Source of the DNA: Glutinoglossum americanum
Lineage: Eukaryota > Ascomycota > Geoglossomycetes > Geoglossales > Geoglossaceae
Direction: 5' to 3'
DNA length: 64,000 bases
Assembly: GCA_020080175.1 (NCBI GenBank)
Contig: JAGHQL010000006.1
Location: 213,731-277,730, forward strand
Below the pieces are notes generated by a model. It was not told where the DNA came from. It was given only the letters and a program-made list of their open reading frames with translations, and ran no database searches. The position numbers and the translations under genes are program-made. Shown piece after piece: positions 2,164 through 46,100 of the stretch; the stretch's first letter is position 1; each line of letters begins with the position of its first letter.

Positions 2164-5100
2164 TTAACCCAGCCTCTCAAGCACCTCCTCAACGTCTCTA
2201 ACCTTCCTCTCCACCCCCCGAACACACACCATCCCATCCTCCAATCTCCTCCGTACCTTTTCCGCCACCCCACCCGCAACTAGCCTCCCCAAATCCGCAA
2301 CTCCCATCCCCGCCCTCGCGGCCCCCAGCCTCTCTTCCGCCTCCCTTAACTCCTCAAACACCCCATCGATAACCACCATCTCCCCTACATCCATCTCATA
2401 ATTTTCGAGCATGCCCGCGGCGCGGACTCGGAGTTTTGTGATCTGGTCCTCGAGGGCTGAGAGCTTGAGGTGGAGCTTGACACCCGAGGTGACGAGGAGG
2501 GAGCGGATTTCAACGGTTTGGTGGAGGGATGTGGGAACGGGCGGTTGGCTCAGGGCGATGAAGTGGCTGACGGCGACTGCTTCGGCGGTTTGTTTCCAGG
2601 AGCGATAGTCTTTGAGGTGGGGGGAATAGCGGCGCCAGAATCGCTGGATGCGTAATGCGGATTCGACGTCGCGGTCTGTATATTTCTCACTTTCGTCGCC
2701 GTCGGTGGTGGTGGCGGCAGTGGGTGCGGGATCGCTCGAGGGTGAGGTACCGGTTGGCTGCTGGCTATACCGGGGGCTCATTAATTGCTCGAGGGGGATG
2801 GCCTTGATGCCCAGTCTTTCTAAGTTAGCAAAGGCGGGCGGATAGCCGCTTGTTTGGCCTCTGTCGGTGCTGAGGGTGGCTATAACAAGGGAGTTCTTGT
2901 TGCGGTATGCCGCAAAGGAGTGAGCCAGTTGTTCGGCAAGCTTCGGGACTGTGGGGTGGACAAGATGGCGGTCCCCTAACAGGCGGAGTTTGAAAATCTA
3001 GTTTTATCACGTTATTAGGCAGAATACGTTTTCTGGCTATTTGGGATTATGGGAATGCGGCTTACATCCTGTACTTTTTGCCGCCCCTCCATGAAGCCGC
3101 GAATATGAGGTTTAATATTGTCGAGATTTACCAGGATGATTGCTAGAAGCTCTGTGTTTCGCCTTAGAAGTATGGTTTGTGGATACGCCCGACCGGCGAA
3201 AACGAAACCGAAGTGGCCATGGTGCGTTGCTTTGGCAAACGTCTTCTCAAGCAGTTGGAGGATATTACAGATTTTCATGAGAAGACGAAGAAGTGATCGC
3301 CGGTACGTGTATATATCGAATTCCGTTAAGTTATCGCGACGCGTGAAGTTTGACACTAGCGGAAGATGAAGGTCGATCCATGATTGTGGAATCAGAAATG
3401 AGTTTCGACATACTAGGGATATCTAGAAACTATTAGTTTAGTCGATAATTAAGTGAAGAGGACTGCGCACCAAGTATGTAGCGATATATTCAAATACAGA
3501 GGTTACAGCGTGGAAGGAGGCTAGCTCTCGCGGATCAGTCCGCTCAAGGTCCTCAAGCATGGTCGCCAAGCTATTATTCTATTCGTTGTGTTAGCACAGG
3601 GGCTTTCCGCGTCATCAAGATATAGAAAACATACAAAACAAAATGCGTCCTGGCGCCACATTTCGCGTTTCACCGCCTCGAGGTGAGATATCACCGTCCC
3701 AGCGTGAATGAGTTGTTGGTCTGGGAGCGTATTACCGTGTAAGTGGGAGCTCAATTTATGGAATAAGGCCCTAGTGAAACGGCGGTCCACATCTACACAA
3801 GCCCAATTAGCTTTCGTGGCGGAATTTAGGGAAGCCTATCCTCACGTAGGGTTTGTGCTAGTTGAATCTGTTCCAGTAAAGAGGATAGGTTCTTCCTTAT
3901 ATCCCATTCCCTACCCAGCCTGTGGAATAGTAAATCTTCAAGACTAGAAGCAACAGTTGCCAATTTGCGGTCCCGGAGTAGACCTGTTTGTGCTTCAATT
4001 ACTGGCTTCGAGTGGTGTCCGAAGGAGGACAGATATGTTAGCGATTCAAGCAGCCGCTCGAGCCAAGTCCGTTCTAAATTAATTAGATGCGGTGTATCTT
4101 TGAGGAGTAGTGCAGATAGATAAGCTTACTACTAGGCCGATATATTCTCTGAAACTCTTCTGCCATTGCTTGGTGGCGGTAAACCGTCATCAGATCCCCG
4201 AACACTGAATTGACTCGCAGCAGATCCTAGAAGCGCGGTCAGGTATCAAAAATTTAGGCTGAAAGGCTTCCTTTTATCTTGTACCTTGATCATGTATTCG
4301 CAATCCGGTGGCGTGATGTTTTTATGCAAAAGAGTGCATCTCCCCACATTGGCTTTTCCACACCCACCTGCTCACAGTTAGTCCCCGCACTTTTATTAGC
4401 TTCCTTGGTGTTCTAAAATCACCTCGAGTCAAAAACCAGGAACACCGCCTTGGCCAATCTCTCTTCCATGTATCTTTTAGCTGCTCATCCAGAATGAGGA
4501 TCGACGAAGAGACGCGGTTGAGGATCCATGACTTTGCCAATTGAAGGCATTCTGCCACGCCAGTGTTCGGGTTCCATTCCTCGCGCGTTCCCCTGAGAGG
4601 GGACCAGGGCATGAGAAAATGAACCGCAGGTAGCGAGCGCGGACGGTAAACTCCACATATTAGAAGCACAGCCGACCATGCGGGGCATTCAGCGTCCTTC
4701 ATGAGAATATCTCTTATCACAGAAATAGCCTCCCTGACAGCTTCAAGGGGCAGGTTCGCTATCGGTAGCGACCTGTTAAAATATCTAGCCGGGTCGACAG
4801 TGACCTAGAAACGTTAGCGCCCGGCCGCATAGGAAGTTATAGGGGCCGTATGCTTACATGAAGACAAAGCGCCCGTTTTATGAGAGCAGTCTCTATATCT
4901 GAAATCTGATTGAGAACCCTGATGTTTTCCCGGTCGTTGGTAGCGTTTCTCGCTATCCCCCAATCCGTTTCTGCCTTTGAAATCTCTAGATTGTACGGGC
5001 TATTAATGACGCCGACCGTTGAGGTGTTATGATTGCCGAAGATTTGACCGGCGCGGACATAGTTGAGAGTATTTATTAGGATAGCTGGGTCGATATCGTC

Positions 5101-19298: not shown

Positions 19299-19511
19299 CG
19301 TCTCGCTCCCGCTATACACAGATTGGCTGTAATAGGCGCTTGCGACCCGGGAAATGCTCCTAGAAAGGACCAAGGGTGCCTTTTCCCCTCACTCTTCGGC
19401 TGCTCTGAGGCCTGTGTTCGCATGGGGTATAAATCCTTCCCTCTAGTCTTCTTTTCCGGACGCTTCCTGCTTCTTGTTCTCTACGCATCCTTAATCCCCG
19501 GCTCAAACACA

Positions 19512-20435
19512 ATGACCGCACAGCCCCCAAGACAGACCACCGCCTCGGTCTTCGACAAGCAACGCCTATCGGTAACAACGGCTCCGTCGATACTTTTTAA
19601 ACTCCCCCGCGAAGTCCGCGACGAGATATACTGCCATGTGCTTGGCCTTCCCACATTTACCAGTCCGCGTGGTCGTACAATCTGCCATGTCATCTGGTCC
19701 GGCAAAAACATAATATCCCGCTTCTCCCCGGGGGACCGCCACCCCGAGTGTGACAACGAAACGGAGGTATGCACTGAGATCCTTCGCACCTGCCGAACCG
19801 TGTCTGAAGAATGTCTGTCTTTGCTTTACTCCCGTATGGCATTTAGCTTCTTGCCCATGAGCCAAGATTTCATGTGGGGCGAGCTCTTGTGGTTCCTTGA
19901 CATGATCGGGGAAAAAAATCGCCAGTGTCTGGGAGAGATTAGTGTGGAAGCACCTTGGGTGGCGCCACTGGTAGAAAGCCCATATACCAGAAAACCCACA
20001 CTAGAAGGTATATCGTGGTTGCGAATAAACCCAGATAAGCACATAGAGTGGGATAAAGCGCTGGGATGGGAGGCGAGCCCCATGGCAGAGGTCGCGTCGA
20101 AGCGCCTCGCTGGACTGACGCCTGGACTCCGCAAATTCGAATTAGTGGCGACAGCCGAGCTGATTGACATGTTGTGGGAGGAGGAGGGATCCGAAGCAGC
20201 GAACAAGGCTCAGTTCGAGGCTCTAGAGAAGGTTGCGGAGGCGTTCCGTGGGACGGCCGTCGAAGTGACCTTTAATATCGAGCAGCTCTCCTGCCCCAAG
20301 GTTGATCCCGTTATCCAGAGGATAGTTAAGAAATTCGGCTGGAAGACAATCAATCAACGTGAGTACGCGCCACTATTGGATGAAAATGAAGAGGATAAGT
20401 GGGTTGTTTCTATCCCAGATAACTCGTGGTGGTAG
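19512..20435 (+). CDS. 2EXR/F-box-like protein, paralogue A
   Basis: The frame contains ILFKLPREVRDEIYCHVLGL near the start, the usual opening of fungal 2EXR or F-box-like proteins. Family-typical segments follow: EILRTCRTVSEECLSLLYSR (an old-copy, cell-wall-independent helix pair) and LTPGLRKFEL. I chose the ATG at 19512 (MTAQPPRQ) because it sits just before the domain; the same frame is open back to 19323, but that extension is hydrophobic and leader-like. No intron is seen and the length from this start is 307 residues. It is clearly paralogous to the gene at 35937-36791: both share LPxEIRDxI, ILRTC, SEECL, LLWFL, IGEKNR and LTPGLRKFEL. Function unknown; such proteins are often lineage-expanded. 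Confidence 0.75.
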   Translation: MTAQPPRQTTASVFDKQRLSVTTAPSILFKLPREVRDEIYCHVLGLPTFTSPRGRTICHVIWSGKNIISRFSPGDRHPECDNETEVCTEILRTCRTVSEECLSLLYSRMAFSFLPMSQDFMWGELLWFLDMIGEKNRQCLGEISVEAPWVAPLVESPYTRKPTLEGISWLRINPDKHIEWDKALGWEASPMAEVASKRLAGLTPGLRKFELVATAELIDMLWEEEGSEAANKAQFEALEKVAEAFRGTAVEVTFNIEQLSCPKVDPVIQRIVKKFGWKTINQREYAPLLDENEEDKWVVSIPDNSWW

Positions 20436-21888: not shown

Positions 21889-23878
21889 CTATATTGACTC
21901 GAAGTTCCGCAGTGCTTTCTCGAGCGGGCGGACGACCTCACTATATACCGCATCCCTAAACTCATGATCCTCCAGGTTCGTGCTCCTTGGCCCAAACGCG
22001 CAAAAGATACATCTTCTAATAGCGTTGTCGTATTCGGGCCCACCCTCTCCAAGGGCTTGTTCATACCATTTCGACGCGGTGGCGAAGTCCGTGTTATCGT
22101 TGGGCTTGCCGTCGGGACCAAGATAGTTCTTCCGGATAGGTTGCTCCTCGAGCGCTTGGCCGAAGCAGAGTTCGAGAAGCAGGATCCCGAGCGCCTGGAT
22201 GCTTTTGCGGCATGAGTTGTGAGTCGGAGTGTCTCGTGTCATGGTGGACGTAGCGTCTCGAGACACGTAGGGTCGCTCGAATATGACGGGCCCTGAGGAG
22301 CCCTCATTAGCCCGTAGGAATAATATGTCCCTTTTGCTCCACCTCTCGCTGAGCCAGGGAGTCGTGTGGAGCAGTAGTAAAGAAGACGCTAGTGTCACCG
22401 CGACGGCTAATCTCTCTAGCCTAGAGAGCGCCATGCGCTCTCCCGTATCTGAGAGCCCACTGGCATTGCCGTGTCGCAATAGCAGGCTTTCTAAGCTCAC
22501 CAATTCCCAAGAATCAAGAACCTCCCGCGATTCTTTAACCTGGGCGAATGTGAATCGCCGATTCTGGCTGTCTGACAGGAATCCAAGATGTGGTTTCCCC
22601 ATCTGGGCCTCTTGGATGGTTGAGCAGAGGTCGACGATCTCGGCCATTCCGGGAGTCTTGTGGTTCGGAGGCTGTCCTTTTTGTGGCATCGAAACCGTGC
22701 ACGTCTCCTGCGAAAAGCTGACCTTTTTTTTGTTGGATTTGATAGCCAGGCTGCCGTAGTGTTAGCTGACGGCGAGAATCTTCTGTTGAATTACAGCCTT
22801 GGCTAGGAGCGACATATACCTCATAGTAGTGCTTGTCAATGAGGATGACCTAGAGCTTTCCGAAACCTCCGTCAATACAACTTGAGATCTGAAGTCATGC
22901 TTGGGGTTAGTAATAAACCCCGCCGTTGGGGGTGGTTGAAACGTTGACTGCGTCTTTGGAAGATCTGAGTCGACTTCCACCACACTGATCTCCAACTCAT
23001 GCCAGTCCCACGGCCTCGGCTGGGGTTGGGCCGGATTCACCTCATAGCAGAACAGAACCTTGAACGCGGAATATGGCAAATCGGTGCCTCCTAGATCGGT
23101 CCCGGGATCTGTGGCGGTTCGCTTCTCCAACAGCAGGTTTGCCCCATGTGACAGCTGACAGCTACACCGCCACCCCGACGTGAGAACGGCATGTAAGTCA
23201 CGGGCGTGCTCCCGAGCACGCTGAAAGGACATGGTGGGCGGGGACTTTCGGTAACGCCGGGAGGGTGCCAGTTCGTCGCTTGACTGCAAAAGCTTCCGGA
23301 GCTCCTCGTTGTGCCGGTCCAGTGCCTTCGCCAGCTTCTCTCTCTTCTTCTTCGAGAGTGTGAATTTGATTCGACGGAACTCGTATTCCCACCTCACCCT
23401 ACTCAGGGCGCTTGTTTCGTTGTCGGCCCATCCGGTCTAGATGCCGACGATTGTTAGGATATGACTGAGGGAAAGGTGGCCAACTACACACCTCTCCATC
23501 TTTAACTCCCAGCTTGTTTTTCAGTTTCTCCATATCAGTTATCATACTATTAACGGTGTTCATGTACCAGTCGTAAGACTTTGGCAACCTATCTCTAAGC
23601 TTGTCCTCGAGGCCTGGTTTGCTCCATGATTGCCCTCCAGGATCCTTCAGTAGATCATTCATTTCGGCATCGGATTCAATTATATCTGCCAGAAGTCTCT
23701 CAAGGTTCTCATCGAACCTTATAGACTGAAAACCGATGGCGTGGACGAAACCCATATACTCCGTGCGGAAGCCCCACCAGTCCTTTAGAGCCTCGAAACC
23801 TTCTTGGTAGTGCTCTAAAGCAGATAGGACCAGCGGGAATGTTGCAAGGACAAACCCAGCCGCTTCGACTCCGCTCAT
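21889..23878 (-). CDS. DUF7580-type fungal protein
   Basis: Exons 23878-23492, 23436-22820 and 22750-21889 join in frame to 621 codons plus stop, with introns of 55 and 69 bp (branch sites CCTAAC and GCTAAC). The N-terminus MSGVEAAGFVLATFPLVLSA is a HeLo-like hydrophobic helix start typical of this family. The middle has WEYEFRRIKFTLSKKKREKL and SGWRCSCQLSH. The C-terminal part has LGFLSDSQNRRF and a kinase-like but degenerate fold with KSIQALGILLLELCFGQ, the usual DUF7580 signature. The family is abundant in filamentous ascomycetes near NLR-type and heterokaryon-incompatibility genes; its biochemical role is unknown. The gene looks intact. It is transcribed away from the C2H2-ankyrin gene, sharing a 264-bp intergenic region. 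Confidence 0.85.
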
Positions 23879-24069
23879 GACGATAAAAACTGACAGAATG
23901 TATTTTCATCCGACGTCGGTGCGGACACTTGGTGGAGCGAAACGGCTATGGGGGAGGAAGCCGGTCGCTGAAGGCAAAATGTTTCGCTTTTTCTAAATGA
24001 GGGGTAAAAGTGGGGTAAGATAGCAAATCTATGGCATTGCGCCAAGAATCTTCTAACTTCCCCGCACAC

Positions 24070-24112
24070 AACCATCACCATCACCAACCATCACCATCAC
24101 AATCATCACCAT
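24070..24112. repeat. ACC/ATC microsatellite in the divergent promoter
   Basis: A run of CATCAC-type triplets lies 30-70 bp before the ATG at 24143, between two divergent genes. Length variation here could affect expression; this is inference. Confidence 0.6.
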
Positions 24113-24142
24113 AGCCGTTACATTCACTTCTGGGAATTCAAG

Positions 24143-27100
24143 ATGGCGTCTAAGCCCGCGGCTATTGCCTTAGAAGCAAACCTTTGTAGGGAATCCTTTT
24201 ATCACCTCTGCTCTTTACTAACGGAACCGGAATGTGTATTTATCGACCAGATATCCCACTCTGCTGTGATGGACGAACTCGGACGGTTCGGGGTCTGGGT
24301 GGGGAATATTGGGGCCCTCCAGGATGGCCCGAGCTCCCTTGACTATCGGTTAAGGGAGGCTTCTCATATCCGTCAAATGGTACTAAAACTCCTTGGGGAT
24401 CTAAACGATACGCTTCAAGAGGGTCAGTAGACAATTTGTCAGTGTTTCACATTGGGACTCTATCTGATAGTGTCATAGCGATATCGATCGTTTCGTGTAA
24501 GCGGCCTCAAAAGGATTTTCAACCCCCAGACGATGAATTCGCTTCCGAATTTTCTGGCGATGGAAGCTCGACAGATTCGGACGCCCAAGACCCCTCGAAC
24601 GACTTGATGCCAACAACGGAGATCCAGCAGCTCTTCCTAGCCATTGTTGAAACTATCACTAGCCTTTTAAAGCTATCAATTACGATCCGTAACCCTGCGC
24701 CGCGAGATAGACATGCCAAGTCCGCATCTTTTAGTCCTTACGACGACCGCTATGATATCGGCCATGTTTGGCAGAAATTCCCCCATGCACGCAAATCCTC
24801 ATGGCTTATAGATCGCCTGGGCAAGGCGAACTCCCGGCGCCGCCTCTATCTCCGATACCGTGAAAAGCACCGTGAGAAGCTATCGAAGGAGCCCAAATCT
24901 CTAGGGAATGCGAAGATAGGGGCCAAAACCGAGGTCGTTCAAGGCGACGGAGCAGACCGTCTTACGCAGAGACAGTCCAGCCGTGAGGCCAAAAGTCGTG
25001 CTACAAACCCAACCGCAACAACCACTCTTGTCCAGACAATAGCCTCGTCGCTATATAACCCAGATAAAGTGGAAGAAAACTCTGATGCAGATCAGTCAGT
25101 TACTTCCTACGCAACCTCCATCGGTGAGGGCGATAATACCACTATCCGCGTACCTCCGCCGCCGGAAGCCTCCGCAGATGAAATGCCGTTTGAGTGTCCC
25201 TACTGCTTCACCATCCAGACATTGAAAGGAACTCATTCTTGGAAGTAAGGATAATCCGCGCTCTCAAATCCCATGTGGTGTTAACATTTCATTTTCAGGA
25301 AACATGTGTTTAACGATCTCGAGCCATACATTTGTACCTTCAAGGATTGTTCTTTAAGGACTTTTCCAACCCGGCGTTCTTGGTTCGATCACGAACTCCA
25401 AGCCCACCGGAGGGATTGGTGTTGCAGCATCTGTGAAACCCGCTTCCATTCTGCTGGGGCCTTTGAGAACCACATGAGGCAACTACATTCTGCGTCATTT
25501 GTGGAATCTCAGCTATCAGCCATTATTAGTCTGGGCGAAACACCTGTTGATAAGATCCTCGCCACCGATTGTCCTTTTTGCGATGACTGGGATACCGTCC
25601 TGAAGGGGCGGATGGCCCTTACCGACCCGGAAATCTCCACTGAAAGACTTGTCGTCACGCCTGAGCAGTTTCGTAGACACGTCGGACGGCATATGGAGCA
25701 GCTTGCTCTGTTTGTGCTGCCTAGGAATTACTACGATGACGAAGGGATGGACTTCGGCTCAGATGCGGTCGCAGTTCACGATAATTCAGATAGCACTAAT
25801 GTTGATAGGAGAATTTACCAAGTGGTTATGGGTGGAGATGAAACGGTACTAGCCCAACTACTCGACACTGGGACTGATGCCGAAGCAGCGCTCCTTCTAG
25901 CCGCTTTGAATGGACGAAATACGGTAGTAAAGCTGCTAATTCAGATGGGCGTCTACCCAGATGCGAAGTCAAGCAGCGGGGAAACTGCGTTGTACAATGC
26001 GGCAGCCATGGGACATGTCGAGGTTGTCCGTGACTTGGCCGGGTACGGAGCCTATATTGACGCAAGGGATAACGATGGCGTGACAGCGCTACAGGCAGCG
26101 GCCGCTAGAGGGCACTACTCAGTTGTGGAATTACTAGTTAACGAGCTTGGGGCAAACGTCACCAACAGGGACAATGATGGGCGGACCGTACTGCACTGGG
26201 CAGCGGTACATGGGTTGGCATCATTAGCTGATTTCCTATCGAGATTTGGACTGGAAGGCATGAGAGATGACAGCGGCCAGACAGCGCTACATGTGGCAGC
26301 CTCAAGCGGGTGTGAAGACTTTTTACGGGTGATCGCCAAAGCTGGACCTGTACTTGAATCACGAGATATTCATGGCCTGAAAGCGTTGCATTTTGCAGCC
26401 AGAAGCGGCAGCACAAAGTCCCTAGAAGTATTAATCAAGGCTGGGGCGGAAGATTTCCGAGGTAACACAGCGCTACTCTTAGCAGCGGGCAGCGGGCATC
26501 TGGATGCAGTGCGTCTGCTCATCGAGGCGGGGGCGGAACCCAAATTTAAAGCACTGTCCGAAGCCGCGCAGAACGGGCACGAACAAGTAGTGTGTCTACT
26601 TCTCGACAAGGGGGTCCTACCTGACCCGAAACCTCACTCTGGACTCACGTACCGGCCCCCCGCGCCGCTAGCTGAGGCAGCAGGAAACGGGCATCTAGAA
26701 GTAGTGCGTCTACTTCTCAAAGCAGGGGCCGATGCTGAACTGAGGTCTTCCAACGGACGCAAAGCACTCCACGAAGCTGCAGCAAACGGGCACCATGAAG
26801 TAGCACGTCTGCTGATCGAATCAAAAGCCGATATCAACTCAAGAAATACACTTGGACTTGCACCCGTGCCGCTGGCTGAGGCTGCAAAAAACGGTCATTT
26901 AGAGGTAGTGCGTCTCTTTATCGAAAAAGGGGCCAGCCTTGAGCTAGACGATTCCAATGGATGCACAGCGCTCTACGAAGCGGCGGCGAATGGCCACTTA
27001 GAAGTAGTGCGCCTACTTCTCGAATCGGGAGCCCATCCCAATCCGAGAGATGCCTCTGGGCGCGCGTCCTTGCCGCTATTCGTAGCGGCGAAAAACGGTC

Positions 27101-29292
27101 ACCTAGGAGTAGTGCGTCTGCTTGCTGAGGTAGGGGTCGACCTCGAACTGAAGGCTCCCAATGCACATACTGCATTGCATGAAGCTGGAATAAACGGACA
27201 TGTACAGGTAGTGCGTCTGCTTCTCAAAATGAGGGCCAAATTCGACTCGGAAGCACTGTACGAAACTGCGTCGATTGGGCGCCTTGATGTGGTGAGCCTA
27301 CTTAGAGAGGCGGGAGCAGATATCGGCGTTGATGCGGCGGCTGTAATTGCTGAGTTGGATGAGCAAGGAGTGGTAGGCAGCCTGGCGACATCCCCCCCAC
27401 CGCCCCCTTCCCAGGAACCCCATCTCCAATGTAAATACTGCGATTATATCCCAAAGCCTCACCCCGATTACAACTACCGCGTATCTAATCTCCGCCTTCA
27501 CGAGCGTACCTTACACCGCCAATCCTACGAGCAGACAATCCCTTCTAAAATCCTAGATTCGAACGAACAATCTCGCCCTGAGACGACGACTATTGCTAAG
27601 GAGCTCACTTTCGCAGAGGTTTCGGTCCACAATAAGAGGGGCGATTTATATATTGTGATTCACGACCAGGTCTACGATGTCTCAAGTTTTGCGGATATCC
27701 ACCCGTACGTTAAAATTTCCCTTCTATTCCGGTTGTGAGCGGAACTTTACCCCGTGTGGGCAGCTTCTATTACGGCCGTACTGCCCGCCCCCGCTTATCG
27801 GTCTTTTACTCTCCCAGAAAAATAGAATTTAGAGGGCGTGCCTTTTCTTCCCTACCGCTTTTTCACAGATTGGGTCATGTTCCGAGGCTCGGTATGCTGA
27901 TTTCTAGGGATGTTTACGAATGCCCAGTGGCGGTGTTAATGCCCTCCTTGATATGGGCGGAAAGGACGCTACCAAGGCTTTTGAGGGTGTCGGACATTCC
28001 CCTGAGGCACGAGAGATACTCGCGGGTCTATTCGTTGCAAAGTTGGAGCAAAAGGTGAGATATGGAAAATAGTACTTCCTTACAGCAACTTATACACCCC
28101 CCAATCTAACCATCCTACACATTCCAAACTGCTAGCCCAAGCACCGCTAACCCTCCTCTCCCCCGCCATAGATTAGTGACTTAGCACCCATAGCTGCCAC
28201 CCCGAGGAGTGAAGAGAATGACTGGGCAGATTGGACTACATCTTTCTATGATCACGTTCCGCGTCATTTGGTCCCGGATTTGGTGCTTACACTCCGACGC
28301 GATAGCCCTATTAATGCCATAAAGTTTAGTCCCAATGGCAAGCTCGTAGCTATTGGGTCCAGCGCCTCGGCTCAGATATTTGATGCCAAGACGGGTGAAG
28401 AAGTCATGCAAATGAGAGATGGCACTGACGGTGGAGTTCACAGAGAGGTTATCTTCGCAGTATGTTTTAGCCCTGATGGCGAGTACCTTGCGGCTGGCGG
28501 GCGAGATGGGACTACTAGAGTAAGTGATCTCAACATTGACGGCCTGTCAACGCTCTTCCCAACTATAGTGGCCTTCATCCATTCGCTGATATTTTTGTTT
28601 GCTACTCCCCATGTTGTAAACTCCAACTAATAGCTGGCCCAATGCAGGTATGGGATACCGAAACGGGGGCCCTCAAATACCAATTCCATCACCGCCAAGT
28701 AAGCGTACTGTGTCTGGACTACGCTAGCAATGGCCGTTATATTGCCTCAGGCTGTGCTACTAATGTAGTTCTAGTGTGGGACACTGAGACTGGGCTACTA
28801 GATAAAATTATGCCCGAACCTTCACCTGCGGGCAGTTACATACTAGCTGTCGCGATATCCCCAGATTGTGGTTACATCGCTGGAGGCTCGTTCAGTGGAG
28901 CCATTACCCTGTGGAAGAGAGCTACAGGCGACCGTTTTGCACGGGTTGAGGGCCATACTGGACCCGTTAGCTCAATCTCATTCCTACAGAAAGGCAGTTT
29001 ACAGCTTATCAGCGGAGGCTGGGACGGCAAAATAAGAGCCTGGGAGCTAATTTCCCAAGGGGGTGAGCCCGATCAGCTGCCCTTACTTGGGGCGCCTCTT
29101 CGAACGTTCGAATGGTCAGTAATGGGCCAGCCATCCCGTGTGCGAGGCTTTGCTGTGGCCCCAGATGGTCGATGGGTATTCAATGGTTTGGACAACGGTT
29201 CGCTGCAATTCTGGGACTTCATAACCGCCGACACCCACGGGTTGTTCGTTCACAAGCACCCTGAGAGTAAAGCCCTCCGCTTTCGTTCGTAG
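24143..29292 (+). CDS. C2H2 finger-ankyrin-cytochrome b5-WD40 fusion protein
   Basis: Exons 24143-24422, 24479-25244, 25299-27704, 27928-28054, 28172-28519 and 28648-29292 join to 1523 codons plus TAG with every phase consistent. Order: N-terminal helical region; C2H2-type fingers (FECPYC, CTFKDC, CSICETRFHSAGAFENHMRQLH, CPFCDDW); about 13 ankyrin repeats (about 25830-27330); a further CKYCDY finger; a cytochrome b5 domain; and a Tup1-like WD40 region. The b5 domain runs ELTFAEVSVHNKRGDLYIVI, then DIHPGG split by the intron at 27705-27927, then GKDATKAFEGVGHSPEAREI, with both haem-ligand histidines present. The WD40 region has VPRHLVPDL, SAQIFDAKTGE and VWDTETG. The b5 exon ends phase 0 (LEQK) and the next exon (ISDLAP..) has no ATG and is open from its acceptor, which argues for one transcript. 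The TAG at 29290 may truncate the last blade. Alternatives are two adjacent genes or a broken chimera. Confidence 0.62.
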
Positions 29293-29550
29293 TTCATGGC
29301 GCAAACCTATTTGATCAATATCGGCAGGCTGACCCTAGCTTCTGACCCCCTAGCCCCTGATACTCTCGCAATTGCAGCTAGTCCGACTGGTCAACTTTTC
29401 GCTATAGCTTCCGGGCGTAAAGCGACAATCTTTAGGTCTGCGCTCCCCAAACCGCAACTCCAGTGTTACCCACCAGAGCTTCTGCTGACGCGTACTGTCC
29501 CAAAATCCAGCTACAGCTCCGAAGAGCCTCCAAAAGGCGAGCTACGATGA
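29293..29550 (+). other. frame continuing the WD40 blade beyond a TAG
   Basis: The same frame goes on after the TAG at 29290-29292 and encodes LAIAASPTGQLFAIASGRKA, the last WD-repeat pattern of Tup1-type proteins. Either the TAG is a true nonsense mutation or a short intron (for example 29248-29292, 45 bp, with a weak GTTCAC donor) removes it and the protein ends at 29550. Confidence 0.5.
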
Positions 29551-30998: not shown

Positions 30999-31139
30999 AA
31001 GCTTTTGTGACCACAGCCTCTTACCCAGCTACTTAGCTACTTATATAGTTATAGTTACTTATATAACTGTCCACCTAGCTGCCTATGTAGCTGCCCACTT
31101 AACTGTCTGCACAACTGTCTACTTAGCTGCCTATATATA

Positions 31140-31190
31140 AGAACTCTCAATGTCAAGGCGACCCGAAGGCATTTTGACATTAAGAGCTCT
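31140..31190. repeat. 17-bp imperfect hairpin near the left MULE end
   Basis: 31140-31156 and 31174-31190 are inverted copies with two transition differences and a 17-bp loop, giving a strong hairpin about 140 bp inside the left inverted repeat. It is preceded by a run of CTACTTAGCTGCC-like degenerate words that recur at 31600-31690. Confidence 0.6.
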
Positions 31191-32088
31191 AATGAAGTTT
31201 GGTAACAGTGTGACATTGCACCTTGCAGTGATAATGCTGGCTAGCCATCTGGTCTACGTGTAGATAAGACTTAGGTATATAAAGACTAATAGATTGACTT
31301 AATGGTTCTAAAATAACTATACATTGGTCCGACTTAGAATATATGGCAGATGGGATAGACTCAATTTTAATAAGCTGGAAATATAAAAGACTGATAGCTG
31401 ACCTCCAAGCAGGAGGCCAGTGAATTATATATATATATATAATAGGGAATACAAACTTTCCATATTGATTTCGGAAAGTATACTTCTGGAATCCTTATCA
31501 CTATGTAGATAAAATGTTGCGGACATTATGTGAGTTAGTTACCTGACCGCAGAGGCTCAATGGCCACTACCAAGTAACTGACCACAGGTCATGATATTAT
31601 ACAACTGCTCATATAGTTGCTCACGTAACTACTTATTGAACTACTACTTAACTACTTATATAGCTACTTATTTAACTGTTCTACTTAACTATCAATAGCA
31701 TTTCGACAACTTCTGCAATTATGCCCTTGTATACCACAATAATTACAAACATTTCACTGTTTGTCTACCTTGTCCTTATACCTATACTGCTACTCTTTAG
31801 ACTGTCTATGAAGCTTGGCTATAATCAAAGCCTTGATATTATTAAACTCTTCTACTAGATCTTCCTCCCGTATCAGATACATATGTAAAGTATATGTATT
31901 AGAATGATATTTTATAGAATATTATTCATGGATATAGTTATAGGGATCATAATTCCACCAGAGACAAACAGTTACAGCATGTTAGTATAATATAAGAAAC
32001 TTTTGGAACTTGCTACAAGAACATTTTCTGTCAACTAAATTGACAATATGTGATGTACCATTTGATACAAATACTTGTGCAAGACCAT

Positions 32089-32771
32089 TGTGATGGTTGC
32101 TTATATAAGCTAGGCTGTGAAGGTCGGGTGCTGCAGGCATTAAGACCGAGCTAGCCCTAAAGGGCTAGTTATAACAGAGTAAGGGAGGCCAACTGTGTGG
32201 TATGACAGGAGGATAGGCCTAATGGTCCTTAATAGTCTATCTAACGTGATTATGGTATTAACCAATGAGGTTTCCTTCTAGACCCTCTTTAGCTTTTTAT
32301 ATATACTAATAGCCCTAAAGGGCCTACAGGTAGGGACCTGCCCGGTTCTCTTTATGGACACATATGGACCCCTTGCCTACGACTGTACTTCTATTGGGAA
32401 GTTCTTATGATACTTATGTAGTTTCTTATGATACTTATGTAGTTTTCTCATCACTGGCCATGCCTTTCGCTGCCGCCTATGCTCCTATATAGAGTTTCTA
32501 TAATACCCGTATGGTTTCTTCACTAATAGCCATGTTCCTATGTGGAGTTCTTATAATGTTTGTGCAGTTTCTTCACCAGCCATGCTCCCATATAGAGTTC
32601 CTATAATGACGTCATTGGTGGGACCTTGTAGGCCCCCTTCGTGTATCACCGGCTTAATGTATTACATTTGGGGTAGTCCCCCCTATATTCCACCAGTCTT
32701 CCTTAAGACTAGCCCTCCTTCTTAGCCTGTTTAGTGGTCTACCGAGCCCTTACCTGGTGGCCACCATAACA
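32089..32771 (+). mobile_element. solo LTR, forward orientation, inside the MULE
   Basis: 683 bp starting TGTGATGG and ending CCATAACA, with near-matching 5-bp flanks ACCAT (32084-32088) and ATCAT (32772-32776). It is homologous along its whole length to the reverse-oriented copy at 33419-34080. TG..CA ends, 5-bp duplication and lack of internal retrotransposon genes indicate a solo LTR. Confidence 0.82.
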
Positions 32772-33418
32772 ATCATCTCTTGATAATTTGACATGGTAAT
32801 AACATGCTTACTGATAGCTATTATCTAGTTTAGCTACAGCAAAGTCAGTAACTCTTAAGAACTGATGGTTTCTAAAATAGCATTGGTATATTATTAACAT
32901 AATACTAGTTTAAATTGCAACTAGTAGTCCTATAATAGGAAGATTGCGATATTTGTTTCAGAATGAATTCAATGATTCAGCAATATTAGAGGTAATATGC
33001 CCAAAACACGATGCTGGAAATACACATTGTACTCAAGATTCCTTCAGAATAGTTACCAGATACTCATAAGCTTATGTATTAAAAGCTTTAAGTTTATTTA
33101 TTGCTATACTAAAGTTATGCTTATTTGCTGCATATACAATCTTCCAAAATGCTGTTTGACATACCAAACTAAAATGCTTTTGAATATTGTCTCTGAGGTG
33201 TTGACAGCAGTGAGAATGATATGACTCAGGAAAGGTGTTGGTAACTGCAGCATGTAATTCATTATCTCGATCACTGATAAAAACTATTTCTATTCAGTCT
33301 ATACCTACAAAGTAATCTTTAATACTTTGTAAGAACTAGAGCTAATTATCACTATCTTCAATTGGAACAATAGCCTAAACTAATGGAAAGATCTCATTGT
33401 TTCTATCAAGTATGCATG

Positions 33419-34080
33419 TGTTATGGTAGCTACTGGGTAAGGGCCCAGTGGGCCACCAAACAAGCTGAGAAGGAGAGCTAGCCCTGAGGAAGGCTGGCAG
33501 AGCATAGAGAAGACCACCCTATACATAATACACTAAGCCGGTGACATACGAGAGGGGCCTACAAGGCCCCACCAATGATGTTATCATAGGAACTTCATAT
33601 GGGAGTACAGCTGATGAAGGAACTGTACGAACATCATAGAAACTCTACATGAGAGCATGGCCGGTAACGAAGAAACTGCACCGGCATCATAGGAACTTTA
33701 CATAGAAGTATGGGCAGCAGCGGAAGGCATGGCTGGTGGTGAGGGAACCACATGAGCATTATAAGGACTTCCCAATAGAAGTATGGCCAGAGGCAAGGGG
33801 TCTGTACGCGTCCATAGAGAGAACCAGGCAGGTTCCTACCTGTAGGCCTCTCAAGGTCATTAGTATATATAGAAGGCTAAGGAGAGTCTAGAAGAGAACC
33901 TCATTGGTCAATACTATAATCACATTAGATAAACTATTAAAGACTATTAGGCTTACCCTCCTCTTGTGCCACACAGCCGGCCTCCCTTGCTTCATCGTAA
34001 CTAGCTTTTTAGAGCTAGCTCGGCTTCGATGCCTGTAGCACTCAACCTTTGCGATCCAGCTTATATAAGCAGCCGTCACA
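33419..34080 (-). mobile_element. solo LTR, reverse orientation, inside the MULE
   Basis: 662 bp reading TGTGACGG..CCATAACA on the minus strand, flanked by a perfect 5-bp target duplication GCATG (33414-33418 and 34081-34085). Differences from the forward copy are mostly transitions. The insertion splits the transposase relic within its DDE region. Confidence 0.88.
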
Positions 34081-34739
34081 GCATGCTGTAAAAAGTATCA
34101 TTCGAAAGCAAGACTTTGTATAATATTCATTTAATGCAACAAATGGATAGTAGGATTTGAATGCAACTTAGGTTGCTGCAGGAATAATAAGACATCACTG
34201 AAAACACTCTCCATTTGTATTAATATAAACATAGTTGTACTTTTGATTTGTCGTAAGGAGATCGACTAGTCCTAGTAATTGTTTGAAGTATTTTACTTCA
34301 TTGACTTTCAACTCTTATCTAATTGCCTCTTGAGTTTACCATGCCTGTTAATAGCTAACATGAGTATTTCTATAAAGAATCCATTTAGTACTCTATATCT
34401 GTTTTGGTAGTATCTCTCTATTGTCAACTACAGCTGTACAATGATGAGAAGCAAGAAAAGTAACAGAATGTGCTTGACTAAAATTCTGATACACGATTGG
34501 ACTACAGAAATAAGGAACATAATATGTAATATAATAGATAAGACCTTTAAGTAAAGTAATATGAATACTAAAGTAACAGAACTCATTATGGCAAGTTAGA
34601 ACATAACGCTTACAATTAGACTGATAGACACGATAGGATTCTTCTTAATTAATAATATAAGAGCGAATAGTATTACAAGTTATACCTAATAAGGAAAAGT
34701 TAGAAGTAAGAGGTGTTGGAATAGATTGTAAAGATGTCA

Positions 34740-34990
34740 TAATAGTAATAGTAATAAGAGTAGTAGCGACAGCAGTGACAGTAGTAACAGTAGTAGTAAT
34801 AGAGGTAGTAGTAACAGTAGCAATAGTAGTGACAGCAGTAGTGATGGAGGCAGCAGTGACAGTAGTAGTGATAGAAGCAGCAGCAATAGCAGTAACAGCA
34901 GTGGCAGCAGTAGTAACAGAAGTAGTAACAACAGTGGCAACAGCAGCAACAGCAGCAGTGATGGAGGCAGTAGCATCAGCAGTAGTGATG
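34740..34990. repeat. GTA/GCA trinucleotide-rich tract next to the right MULE end
   Basis: About 250 bp of interrupted AGTAGT/CAGCAG triplets adjoin the right terminal repeat. Read on the minus strand in the transposase frame it would encode a Thr/Ala/Val-rich stretch before the conserved transposase start, so it may be an expanded N-terminal coding repeat or a subterminal repeat. Confidence 0.65.
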
Positions 34991-35130
34991 GTGGCCGCGA
35001 AAACGCGTGGCTGGACGCGAGCTTTCGTGGCCATCACATGACTTACAATAGGGTATTTCAGTAATTTGTTAAATTTTTGGGGTAGCCGAGTAATTAAAAT
35101 TGAAAATGAGGGTATTTCGGTAAATAACCC
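34991..35130 (-). repeat. MULE right terminal inverted repeat
   Basis: 140 bp, inverted counterpart of 30859-30998, directly followed by the target duplication copy TATATAGAA at 35131-35139. Confidence 0.92.
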
Positions 35131-35936: not shown

Positions 35937-36791
35937 TTAGTTGGGGCTAGCAGCCAACTCTGACTCCAAGAGTTGGCTCTGCGAGCTGCCTGCCCCGAAA
36001 GATGCCAAGCCGTTAGCATTTAGCTCCCACCCAAACTCAGTCGCAATTCGATCGAAGACGGGCTTAAGCCCCTGGTAGCAGAGGCCTTGAAGGTCTAGAA
36101 CCACTTTCACACCCGTCCCGCTGAATGCCTTCGCGATTTTCCTTAATACCTCGAGTTGAGCCTCGCTCGCTGATCCCGAGCCATCTTCTTCCTTAAGCAT
36201 ATAACACAATTGGACTGATGCCGTCAACTCAAATTTCCGGAGTCCTGGAGTGAGTTTGCTCAGTTGGAGCGCTCCAGTCGCTGCCCTAGGGTTCACTTCC
36301 CACCCTAGTGTGTTCCCCCATGCAACCCATCCCCGCCACCCCATCATCCCAAAAGACCAAGGACCCGCCAACCTGGGCATATTTGGGCAGGAGGACCCGG
36401 CAACTGGTTTTACATATGGGGCTTCCATGGAGATCTCGCGAAGTCGCCCGCGGTTTTTCTCTCCGATCTCATTAAGGAACCATAACAGGTCAGTCCACAT
36501 GTCGTCCTGGTTGCCCAAAGCGGCAAAGGTGAAGACCAATCGCGAGTATAGCAAGTCCAGACACTCCTCCGATATTGCTTGGCAGGTTCTGAGGATTGCT
36601 GTATACAAACAATCGGTACCGCCGTACCAGGGATGGCTGTCATGTCGACACAGGCAGAACAACAACGGGCGGTTATCAGGGGCGACGTCACAGAATATGC
36701 GGTGTCGTACGGATGTAGGGACACCGAGAGAGAGACTGAAAATCTGATCACGGATTTCGAAGGGAAGCTTGAAGATCGGTGAGGTTGCCAT
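35937..36791 (-). CDS. 2EXR/F-box-like protein, paralogue B
   Basis: From the ATG at 36791 the frame gives 284 residues beginning MATSPIFKLPFEIRDQIFSL, the 2EXR/F-box-like opening, with AILRTCQAISEECLDLLYSR, TDLLWFLNEIGEKNRGRL and LTPGLRKFELTAS. The frame is open upstream to 36899, but the ATG at 36791 lies next to the domain and matches paralogue A's domain start. No introns. It is a diverged paralogue of 19512-20435, on the opposite strand about 15 kb away. Function unknown. Confidence 0.77.
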   Translation of the reverse strand: MATSPIFKLPFEIRDQIFSLSLGVPTSVRHRIFCDVAPDNRPLLFCLCRHDSHPWYGGTDCLYTAILRTCQAISEECLDLLYSRLVFTFAALGNQDDMWTDLLWFLNEIGEKNRGRLREISMEAPYVKPVAGSSCPNMPRLAGPWSFGMMGWRGWVAWGNTLGWEVNPRAATGALQLSKLTPGLRKFELTASVQLCYMLKEEDGSGSASEAQLEVLRKIAKAFSGTGVKVVLDLQGLCYQGLKPVFDRIATEFGWELNANGLASFGAGSSQSQLLESELAASPN

Positions 36792-38643
36792 CGTCTCGTG
36801 TCTGTAAATGAAAAGTTGTTGAAGGCGAGGACTGTCAGGTAAAAAAACGGCCTGGACAACGATATTTATACCTTCCCCTCTGGCACAGCGGCCACACAAA
36901 TGGCACAGAGCACCCTAAGTCGATTCAGATAAGTTCAGAGGCTAGGCGGCGGTGATCCCACGCGGTGTTAACGCTGCCCGGTAATCACAGTATAACGCGG
37001 ATCTGGGTATATACCTATCTCCACCCCAAAGGGCCATTCCTAACCTATTTTAACCCACTAGGACAACAGGTCAGTTGAGCTCTCAATCAATCCAACAAAC
37101 AAACACAGGGCGAAGCTGAGTCCAGGCGGTAAGAACGACTCTTTGGGTGTGTCAATAAGTAAGAAAAGACTAGGGTATATAATATCCCGAGACTCGGGGT
37201 CCTCTAAAAGGCAAGATATTGGCAGTCGGGCCGAACCGCTTTACGGTTGAGACAGGCTGCAGGTAATACATCGTAACCTCTGCAAATTTTATAGAGATGA
37301 CCAAGGAACATCTCTAGCGTGTTTTTGTTGGCCGTTCGTTTTCCAGCAGGTACTCAATCCGATCTTCACATACACCCCTAGTACCCCGTGACATCACATG
37401 TCATGGTTGTGGCCACAAGGGTTGCTCATTTCATCCATAGCTAACTTCCTATAACTCCTCTCTCGTCTCCTTTTATAGGCGCCATCTCAAATCCTCTTCT
37501 GAGGTTGTCATCGCTGCGTTATTGTCGAAAAATGCTTTGACCTAGTATTAACGCGGAAAGTGCTAATATGGGCATTACATCTTCCTATCTGTTAGTTTGA
37601 TGGTCCATTTTGAAACTTCCCAATGGGTACGACCGCCCTTTGACTGGGATCTCCTCGCTGTTCCCATGCTACTCCATCAAGGCTTCCTAGTCGCACTATA
37701 GATCGCTTGTCGGCGGCAAGTGTCGCCCCTACCATCATTAGCGCCACAATTACAACTAATTCCTACTAAACACCAGCGGATGAGCAGGCTCATTTCTTCA
37801 TCTTGTCTTATCGCCTCATGTCTCCAACAAACCACCAGCAATCTCTTACTTTGAGCTCACTTCCTTGCCGAGAGGCAAATAGGTGAATTCCCCCGCGCAC
37901 CAAACGCCCACCCACATCCCAATCCATAAATATCCCAGAGCGCGGCTAGCCTCCATAAATCTTCACCCAGGAGCTGAGCATCGGCTAAACCTAACTAGAA
38001 AGCCCCTCTCACAGGACATATTTTTCCACATGCCCAAGCGTATATTTATATATCCCCCCACCCGCCCTTACCCCCTCCCCACAGCTTCCATGAGTAAAAC
38101 ACTAGAATTAAATTCGACCCCTACATCACACGCAACCGTAGCTTCTCCCCTGCTGGCTTCCCCACATTACAGTACACAGTGTTGTATAATAACCATGCGT
38201 TTCTAGACCGCGAGCGCTGTGAATACCATGGCCCCACCCGAGATCCGGGGAAGGGGGAAGCTATCACATCTCTTTTGCGCAGATTACGAAGTGATGGGGA
38301 GTCGGCTCAGCGGTTGGATCTAGAGTTTGTGTCCCTGGCTTGCTAGTCGAGTAGCGTTGTGGTGCTCGCAGTTGCTGTGTGTGAAATGGGGGTGGAAATA
38401 AATTGGGAGTGATTTGCTTGCTTGCTTAGCTGTTGCTGTGAGTATTGTGCAACCCGGGGCAACGTAGCGCTCTATTATAATCGGTTACCTGAAACGGTAC
38501 TATCATTCCATAAGATCTAGAATAGCTCTCCCTGCCTATGTTCGGTTCCAATTCGATCCACTTGACATATTTATTCGGCCCGTTTATAACCAATGCGTTA
38601 AACTAGGTTATCAATCCGGTCCAGGACTGTTATCACCGGCACA
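36792..38643. other. intergenic stretch
   Basis: No gene supported. A 107-codon open frame at 37883-38206 is Pro/Ser/Thr-rich and shows no family resemblance. CT-rich and AT-rich pieces alternate. Confidence 0.5.
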
Positions 38644-43123: not shown

Positions 43124-46100
43124 CTATCCTCCCTGGGCATTTGGGTCGGCGCCCATCTCGAGCAGGAGTCGGACAATCTGGCGGTGATCATAGAATGAAG
43201 CCGCGCGCAGCGCGTGATCGAAGGGGCCCCCTTGGGCATTGACATCGGCGCCTGCATCGAGTAGTCGTTGGACGATCTCGCAGGAGCCGAGTGCCGAGGC
43301 CGCCTGTAGCGCATTGCCATATCTTCCACCACGAGCGTTGACGTTAGCACCTAAATCGAGTAGCCGCTGGACGATCTGGTCACGGCCGTTAGCCGAAGCC
43401 GCCTGTAGTGCACTACTAAAGCATCCCCCTTGGGCATTAACATCAACCCCCGCATCGAGCAGCCGTTGGACGATCCGATAGGAGCCGAAGGACGAAGCCG
43501 CCTGCAGTGCATTGCCGTAGTACCCCCCTTGGGCATTGGCATCAGCACCTGCATCGAGCAGCCGCTCGGCGGCCTGGTCGTGGTGGTAAACCGAAGCCCC
43601 CTGTAGTGCATTGCCATAGTACCCTCCTTGGGCATTCACATTAGCCCCCGCATCGAGCAGCAGTTGAACAATTTGGCCGTCGCCGAAGGCCGAAGCTGCC
43701 TGTAGTGCACAACCGTGGAACTTCCCCTGAGCATTGACATCGGCCCCCGCATCGAGCAGTAGTTGAACGGCCTTGTAGCGGCCGAACGCTGAAGCTGCCT
43801 GCAGCGCGTTATCATAGTAGCCCCCTTGGGCATTGACGTCGGCCCCCGCATCGAGAAGCTGTTGGATAGTTTGGCAAGAGCCGAACGTCGAAGCAGCCTG
43901 CAGCGCATAACCGTAGTGCCCTCCCTTGGCATTGACGTCAGCGCCCGCGTCAAGCAGTCGGCGGATGATCTCGTTGTGGCTGCGGATCGAGGCCGCCTGC
44001 AGTGCACTACCGTGGCGACCACCTCGGGCACCAACGTCAGCATTCCACTTAAGCAATTGTATCACAAATTCATCTAAGCCAGCCAGTGATGCATAATACA
44101 ACGGAGAGGCCACACTCTCCAGGCGCATTGTGATATCTGGCGGCTTCGATGGATCCTCCGGATTACAGAGGCGAATCCAGTTGACAAAGGCATCCCTCCT
44201 AGACCAAAGTAGTTCTACAACCAGCCTGTAAGTCGTGCTAGTACTTTCCCCAACCTCTCGAGAATGCTGAACCCAGTACTTCGAGGCATATCTAGCTAGC
44301 GGAAATTCATTAACAGTTTCCGACCTTAAAGAATCTGGCTTGTCGAATTGCAGAAGATATACGAGACAGCCCTGAGCTATGCGCCTATTAGCGTGAATCT
44401 CTTGGACACTATATCTCGCTGCCGGGCCATCTCGAATTCGGTCCGAAACAAGGTACTCTTTGACAGAGAAATGAGCGAGCCGTAGCAATTCCACTTCTAC
44501 GCCACGTCCAATCCAAAACACGCGTGACACAGTGACAAGGCTGGAGCATATTTCTAGCACTTCCCGCGGTTCACGGAGCCTCCGCCCGAGGTCGAATCTA
44601 GGGGGGTCGCTAAAGTCGATTGCAATCGCTTCGGCAACTTCTTCAAGTAGTAAGGGACGATTAGAGCAGGCCAACCATTGAAGGATTCCTATCGCAGCCT
44701 GGTAGTCCTCCTCACCAACACTTACTAATATTCGGTCATATGTCGCATCCAATGTTTTCGGCAGCGTCTTTAATGCCTCTCGGAGTCCGTTGATGTGTCG
44801 GCATCTCCGCAGCGAGTCTAATTGGCACACGACCCACCGAAACCTTAGGGGCACTGTCAGTAGGTCTCTCGATCAAAGCAGAGAAGCACCTAATAGAAGA
44901 CCATACATGCCCTGGGCTCCTTTCACAAGAGCCTCTTGGATCTCTTCTTGGATCTCCAGCGGCCATTTCAGCTTCGGATCATGTCGAAGCCGTTCGCGAA
45001 TATGCAGCTCAATGTCTGCGTTAACCAACTCACCCTGAATACAGATCTGATGTGTTACCAACGGTTCCAGAGCTTCTTCGATGTCTATCTCTTTTCGGCT
45101 GGTGGCCAGAATATGCAATTCCCTTATATCCCATCGAGCCATTTCCTCCACCAGCACTAAGAGCTTCCCTCTCTCTGCGCACTCATCTAGAGCGTCAATA
45201 ATGACATATGTTTGATGGAAATTCTCAATCATTCCCTTCAGGGTGTCCATCAGCTCTTGGGTCGTTAAATATTGCTGCCCATACTGGTGACAAGAGTATA
45301 GGTCTTCTAAATGTTTTGAGGGATTCGCGCTCTGCGTAGAGAATTGCGCGATTAGCGAGCGCATGAGATTGTCATGACACTGTTTCTCTTTGTCATTAAA
45401 ATCAAAGTAATAGAAAGCAATAGCGGAGGCTGGTGGGCAATGTGTCTTAATGTTTTCAATAATAGTTGAACTGTAGTATCGACTTAGCGACAGGTTTCGA
45501 GATACCGCGAGGTCACACTAACCACAGAATTGTTTTGCCGCATCCAGCTAAGTTTTTACTCAGCGCCCAGCAATTCTGGTAACTCGGTCGAAAAGTACTT
45601 ACGAATCCCATGCATCCAAAAGACCGAGCCGGGAGCCACTTTCCATTCTGTGAATCTACTCCCCTGAACAAACCATGAGCCTGTTGTCGGCTGCCGTTTT
45701 TCGCATGCGGCTTTGTGATTCGAATTGGGATCCGGGGGAGAAAGCCAGCTATATATCCTCTGCCGATATTCCCCTAAGGATATAGCCAAGTTAGTGAGGT
45801 GTTCCAAGATAGGTAGAGCCACTAACCATTCTGAGCGAGGACTAATGCGCCAACACCATCTTCAGCCCTCGCTACTCCTGCAGATATTTGAGTAAGGCTC
45901 TCTGTAACGTCGTCTAGCTTTCGTCGAGATGCAACCGATGAATCACTATATAGCCCTCCATTAGCTAAGCTCTATCAATTATCCGCTACAACAGTGCCTA
46001 AATAGCCTACACCTGAAGAGTCTCCACAGCCAAGCCAAGGTTGTCACGTAGCTCCGAGACGATCTCCCGAAGTTTCGCCAGCGTACTCTCTTTAAAGGGA

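Follow-up and report, generated by a model that had tools for sequence, protein, structure and literature searches.

A zinc finger-ankyrin chimera with altered copies of the fungus's own cytochrome b5 and Tup1: a candidate receptor beside a DUF7580 gene in Glutinoglossum americanum

What could a single fungal gene do with C2H2 zinc fingers, ankyrin repeats, a cytochrome b5 (b5) domain and a Tup1-like WD40 propeller, parts that normally come from separate genes? The question is raised by a gene on the forward strand, at positions 24143-29550 of a 64,000-nucleotide stretch of Glutinoglossum americanum contig JAGHQL010000006.1 (the window, to whose first letter all unprefixed positions refer). 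The initial annotation of this stretch had suggested that the gene couples a redox or haem signal to corepressor-like binding. We propose instead, at roughly even odds, that the chimera forms one half of a two-gene receptor-effector pair, the variable half that resembles a sensor, and that its C-terminus is made of duplicated self proteins in the manner of an integrated domain or decoy. Its location back to back with a partner gene suggests, as far as the sequence goes, a receptor-effector pair and not a redox-controlled gene switch.

The gene model comprises seven exons, where six had been counted before, and 1580 codons without internal stops; the computed mass of the product is 172 kDa, above the 165 kDa previously estimated. 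All six introns are GT-AG and the exon phases are consistent throughout, as had been claimed for the smaller set, and the junctions 27704/27928 and 28054/28172 were already exact. The gene is composed as follows:

24143..24422 (+), exon 1: N-terminal segment DELGRF..WVGNIGA..SSLDYRLREA, carried also by sister genes ahead of the C2H2 block.
24479..25244 (+), exon 2: linker, followed by the first cysteines of the C2H2 block.
25299..27704 (+), exon 3: remaining C2H2 block, ankyrin repeats, a second C2H2 finger at ~27420-27520 and, from ~27592, the first half of b5.
27705..27927 (+), intron 3: lies within H-P-G-G and pairs with the canonical b5 intron at the equal position.
27928..28054 (+), exon 4: second half of b5, whose final codon is that of the canonical exon.
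28055..28171 (+), intron 4: 117 bases, pairing with canonical b5 intron 2.
28172..28519 (+), exon 5: first blades, preceded by the Tup1-type pre-propeller segment; first in-frame ATG at 28406.
28648..29266 (+), exon 6: middle blades; the 5′ intron position is that of canonical Tup1 (phase 0), and one canonical intron is missing inside.
29354..29550 (+), exon 7: last blade and tail; the 5′ intron (phase 1) lies within ~3 alignment columns of a canonical Tup1 intron.

Pfam places ankyrin repeats (E 2.4e-86), Cyt-b5 at residues 1119-1190 (E 5.9e-21) and WD40 (E 9.3e-34) in this order, so that repeats of the superstructure-forming kind (ANK, WD40) are present. The C2H2 fingers score under the Pfam cut-off; ten Cys/His columns are invariant in an alignment of the seven family members described below. 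On the 3′ side of the gene, window positions 31001-35000 are AT-rich (35-41% GC) with many short tandem repeats.

The b5 part is most closely related to a complete, tail-anchored cytochrome b5 gene of the same genome (L034, on contig C296), with 67.5% identity over 80 aligned residues. Both copies are split at the same two places, within H-P-G-G (phase 2) and after the last b5 codon (phase 0). Some likeness persists within the introns themselves: alignments of the corresponding pairs gave z 4.5 for intron 3 and z 2.7 for intron 4, neither value being reached by any of 200 shuffles, while the other 14 pairings of four chimera with four canonical introns gave at most z 0.91, and one of them -3.1 (the last canonical Tup1 intron was left out of this comparison). 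Histidines 39 and 63 (bovine numbering), the two haem ligands, are kept and the intron does interrupt H-P-G-G, as had been read from the sequence initially. Among 14 residues that we take to be haem ligands or to line the pocket, 13 are kept, both histidines included, and haem binding by the domain is plausible. The chimera copy shares with its parent the sequence, the two introns and the haem ligands, but differs in three respects: the codon corresponding to the canonical start is no longer ATG; the exon for the membrane anchor of the endoplasmic reticulum form, retained in L034, is replaced by a WD40 exon; and the acidic patch for docking of redox partners is mostly gone, with three of eight surface acids in the chimera against eight of eight in L034. 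Two of these eight positions are presumed by us to belong to the patch. The other six are named for cytochrome c docking models in the available text of PMC9320672. We infer that b5 and Tup1 were fused at, or close to, the 3′ end of b5 intron 2.

The source of the WD40 part is the Tup1/RcoA gene of the same genome (L033, on contig C246). Scores by themselves would favour other propellers: several single stretches from other WD40 genes of the genome outscore each Tup1 exon (at best 102 bits, on contig C32, against 80.8 and 67.7 for two exons on C246), and in a raw-score ranking of PDB entries yeast Tup1 (1ERJ) comes fifth. The assignment therefore rests on the segment ahead of the propeller and on the introns. 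A Tup1-type pre-propeller segment is present in the chimera and, among the matches listed, C246 is the only one besides the window that spans the query before residue 28. Two of the three Tup1 intron positions examined correspond, one before VWD (phase 0) and one near the last blade (equal phase, ~3 columns apart), and the third is absent. The first Tup1 intron has its position in common with the canonical gene and no sequence similarity left. Identity to canonical Tup1 is 40% over 330 aligned codons, a figure slightly affected by the tail of the alignment, which is out of frame; the site counts given below use the correct frame. On sequence grounds, the b5 and WD40 parts are copies of the fungus's own intron-bearing cytochrome b5 and Tup1/RcoA genes, and the observations fit the earlier remark that such parts normally come from different genes.

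Beyond its propeller descent, pre-propeller segment and two corresponding introns, the chimera departs from canonical Tup1/RcoA and from yeast Tup1. The N-terminal tetramerisation and Cyc8-binding domain is missing from the gene model, and the genome search found that domain only in the canonical copy. The functional face is mostly changed: 14 of 15 functional or adjacent sites are identical in yeast and in the canonical copy, and the chimera retains two of the 14, versus 87 of 203 conserved Tup1 positions overall (hypergeometric P 0.02). Some of the 15 sites are ones that we take to be functional. The remainder come from the available text of PMC2614187. Codon-position counts (b5 14/18/37, Tup1 147/122/205) were considered as a test of selection and dropped because the changes cannot be assigned to one branch.

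Could the halves belong to two adjacent genes, or have been brought together by an assembly misjoin? The 117-base intron sets the 3′ half apart, but this explanation is very improbable. The first half of b5 has no in-frame ATG. The WD40 exon, which had been described as lacking an ATG, does lack one in frame over its first 78 residues and carries one at residue 79 (28406); a start there would leave out the Tup1-type segment together with the greater part of blade one. Moreover, the exon 4 donor opens an intron matching the canonical b5 intron, and the genome search found neither a second close copy of either half nor a loose Tup1 N-terminus. Since that N-terminus was found once in the genome, nothing points to a full-length second Tup1 or to a misjoin. 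The claim of a single open gene joining C2H2, ankyrin, b5 and Tup1-like WD40 parts hence holds as a gene model, with donors in the same genome that have corresponding introns, and the gene appears to be a true chimera.

The Tup1 part, at 40% identity, has diverged strongly, which would also fit a fusion without function, either in decay or assembled recently. Against this stand the 1580 open codons and the intact splice sites. Under neutral drift, 2.5, 5.1 and 8.9 stops are expected over the 467 b5 and WD40 codons at 5, 10 and 17.5% divergence, respectively, and none is observed. At 5% divergence only 2.5 stops are expected (P 0.08), so a young fusion would still agree with the data; at 10 and 17.5% the open frame goes beyond chance, and the nonfunctional fusion is improbable.

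The contrast between what was kept and what was lost in both copies bears on function. With fold and haem residues kept and partner surfaces lost, the parts resemble modules that still fold and could hold haem, released from their former partners. A haem- or redox-gated corepressor-like regulator, its C2H2 fingers binding DNA and its Tup1-like propeller recruiting repressors, would explain the fingers, the descent of the propeller and the retained haem ligands and pocket. Nevertheless, such a regulator is doubtful: the Tup1 N-terminus is absent, the conserved functional sites and the b5 acids have largely disappeared and the b5 anchor is lost, so the coupling proposed in the initial annotation is not upheld. 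A further difficulty for the corepressor reading comes from the family to which the C2H2 block belongs.

When the N-terminal part of the chimera (residues 1-521) was searched against the source genome (25.77 Mb, 317 contigs), the whole C2H2 block was found in seven genes: the chimera and one each on contigs C266, C251, C28, C301, C3 and C84. Their downstream parts differ. In C251 and C28 an NPHP3_N match above the cut-off is followed by ankyrins; C266 has tetratricopeptide repeats (TPR) and WD40, with the block in the same open frame; C301 has Sel1 repeats, C3 further fingers (by eye) and C84 a copy of protein phosphatase 1 (PP1). Since the exon joins of the sisters are only partly modelled, these domain orders are read from open frames that run collinear. 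Excluded from the seven were two weak places on C2, in another multi-finger gene, and a fragment at C274:171678 with no DUF7580 match listed nearby. The block is thus common to NACHT-ankyrin, TPR and phosphatase-like genes and is not in itself the mark of a transcription factor, which argues further against a corepressor.

The C84 sister provides a second case of self-protein capture. Its PP1 catalytic-subunit copy (L061, ~2900 to 3950) is identical to canonical PP1 (L068) at 191 of 292 residues and has three introns at places corresponding to those of the canonical gene. Five of six residues that we take to be metal ligands are changed (H66R, D92N, N124K, H173S, H248N), as is R221, and five of seven residues presumed to form the docking groove are kept. 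Intron-bearing copies of conserved self genes are accordingly found in two of the seven family members. The chimera fits the pattern of a host-gene duplicate fused to a receptor-like protein, as in integrated decoys, "receptor-like" being said by family resemblance only.

Two further places were also noticed. The excluded fragment at C274:171678 (L049, L063), 66 kb from the chimera, contains part of the N-terminal segment, interrupted by a change of frame, and looks like a relic; no C2H2 block was found in it. On the contig of the Sel1 sister, C301:17402-17539 (L054, L058), near the end of another open frame, encodes a finger that matches the one preceding b5 in the chimera at 47% identity over 46 residues.

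On the other strand, the chimera is faced by a gene encoding a DUF7580 protein:

21889..23878 (-), predicted partner gene: a hydrophobic segment at the N-terminus (MSGVEAAGFVLATFPLVLSALEHY), then a middle part and the DUF7580 domain (E 2.4e-30).
23879..24142, interval: 264 bases between the two predicted start codons, head-to-head; a candidate shared promoter.

DUF7580 (PF24476) has 15 matches in the genome, 14 of them above the cut-off, and all seven C2H2-block genes lie within ~3.5 kb of a DUF7580 gene. Six of the pairs are head-to-head, with predicted start codons 264, 269, 264, 415, 339 and 201 bases apart; the seventh, on C28, is tandem at ~3.5 kb. Divergent neighbours with a short interval repeated across copies, the arrangement of sensor-helper pairs, are therefore seen in six of seven cases. 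Random placement within 5 kb is expected for ~0.6% per gene, the product for seven being 2e-16 if independence is assumed. The head-to-head partners resemble each other at the N-terminus, the consensus MSGxEVAGxVLGxxPLL being common to the five of the six that were aligned, and the sixth (L074) starts alike. In the C28 partner (L075, 1080-2501), DUF7580 shares one open frame with a subtilase (Peptidase_S8), and the C2H2-NACHT-ankyrin gene lies downstream of it. Of the DUF7580 frames that were scanned, none showed a nucleotide-binding domain. A partner N-terminus profile searched against the PDB gave 27 matches up to E 10, the best (0.0029) to a rhoptry protein fragment, and these were taken as helical noise; single-sequence AlphaFold models were of too low confidence for use (predicted local distance difference test 38 for the DUF7580 exon and 48 for the partner N-terminus). 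The pair is flanked by DUF7730 frames at window positions 19299-20435 (+) and 35937-36914 (-), the second just under the cut-off.

The genome appears rich in NOD-like receptor (NLR) genes, with at least 156 NPHP3_N (NACHT-type) matches in 25.8 Mb, a match not always being a gene. One NLR-type gene lies in the window itself (43124-45472, -), with NPHP3_N at C274:258825-259202, GPIID_WHD and ankyrins in 99-base tandem units.

Gene family and paired DUF7580 gene together point to a receptor-type role. Taking into account that: (i) the C2H2 block is common to the chimera, two NACHT-ankyrin genes and four others with C-termini that are all different; (ii) seven of seven block genes adjoin DUF7580, six head-to-head; (iii) the PP1 copy combines a dead metal site with a kept groove; (iv) the b5 and Tup1 copies hold fold residues and lose known partner surfaces; (v) the genome has so many NPHP3_N matches; and (vi) one DUF7580 partner runs into a subtilase, S8 proteases occurring in some fungal NLR sensors that control gasdermins according to the available text of a 2025 review (PMC12881547), we favour the receptor-effector pair and suggest for it the following mechanism. 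The N-terminal C2H2 block, common with NLR-type genes, is followed directly by ankyrins, with the NACHT omitted, and by a C-terminal module made of a second finger and the altered b5 and Tup1 propeller duplicates, joined at an intron. Either the captured domains or the ankyrin array would meet a ligand, which might be a parasite protein, a protein of a non-self partner or a change in haem or redox state. The ankyrin/C2H2 part would then release or activate the head-to-head DUF7580 protein, the acting partner, which could for example kill or arrest the cell. The sequence itself shows the gene model, the ancestry of the parts, the family and the linkage to DUF7580; sensing and signalling by the pair, in immunity or allorecognition, are what we infer from its anatomy and company. 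More tentatively, the seven pairs may represent an undescribed fungal two-gene recognition system, formed by a C2H2-block receptor with a swappable C-terminus and a divergent DUF7580 responder, in which receptors would diversify by capturing intron-bearing self copies with the original activity disabled in order to detect attacks on those proteins.

Several observations weigh against this proposal. A decoy should keep the attacked surface, yet in b5 and Tup1 the surfaces for known partners have eroded and a dead site with a kept groove is seen only in the PP1 copy; the decoy form is therefore partly supported, by the PP1 sister, the other two parts having lost the faces bound by known partners. 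The chimera is not an NLR, since no NACHT or NB-ARC was found in residues 1-521, nor among the 25 families listed, of 42, for the whole protein. The seven pairs may all go back to a single ancestral pair, in which case they are not seven independent events and the assumption behind 2e-16 is broken. Next to eight of the 15 DUF7580 matches no C2H2-block gene was found, in neighbourhoods not read through, and the C28 stretch between the genes, partly read, possibly holds an intervening gene. Searches yielded no function for DUF7580 or for the C2H2 block. With E values up to 1, the DUF7580 profile matches a single PDB entry, a kinase (E 0.29), which is a weak likeness, and the HeLo/MLKL likeness of the partner, seen by eye, is not reported by Pfam. 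The main rival takes the chimera as a neofunctionalised, non-immune scaffold or haem sensor, in which b5 would sense haem or redox state and the propeller would bind a new partner. An open frame and a haem pocket retained despite strong surface change speak for it. It leaves the seven-fold DUF7580 linkage and the PP1 sister unexplained, and we regard it as unlikely, though the most serious of the alternatives.

If the receptor-effector reading is correct, fungal innate immunity with integrated decoys, an open question, becomes a concrete, testable gene pair. The parents Tup1 and cytochrome b5, for the chimera, and PP1, for its sister, would be named as possible targets of fungal parasites, and DUF7580 would gain a likely pathway. 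The shared introns would, in addition, offer a clean example of receptors gaining domains through joining at introns.

In the open-licence literature searched, as far as its text was available, no description of the C2H2-block/DUF7580 pair was found and no paper mentions DUF7580; a query joining cytochrome b5, WD40, ankyrin, zinc finger, domain architecture and fungi returned only a myosin paper. The terms zinc finger, C2H2, decoy, AcuF and cytochrome do not occur in the text of PMC9815663, nor do cytochrome and Tup1 in the main text of PMC12258605. A scan of viral contigs for the b5-WD40 junction gave seven pattern matches, none of which was confirmed.

Comparison with known systems, from the portions of the sources available, places the pair among several relatives. 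Decoy domains in fungal NLRs have been raised before (PMC5658179), and HELL domains are in some cases fused to (pseudo)kinases (PMC12881547). In Sordariales nine NLRs end in a CHK-2-like kinase, which exemplifies an integrated domain or decoy (PMC12258605); the chimera likewise is an NLR-related repeat protein with host-protein copies at its C-terminus, but without NACHT, with two unrelated copies in tandem and with a DUF7580 partner gene. Plant sensor-helper NLR pairs (PMC12258605, PMC8294853) share the head-to-head arrangement and the added domain in one member, whereas neither member of the fungal pair is known as an NLR. Podospora NWD2/HET-S (PMC3321046, PMC4344463) is a fungal receptor gene adjoining a cell-death executor gene, the organisation proposed here; in Glutinoglossum the partner is a DUF7580 protein and the candidate receptor bears the C2H2 block.

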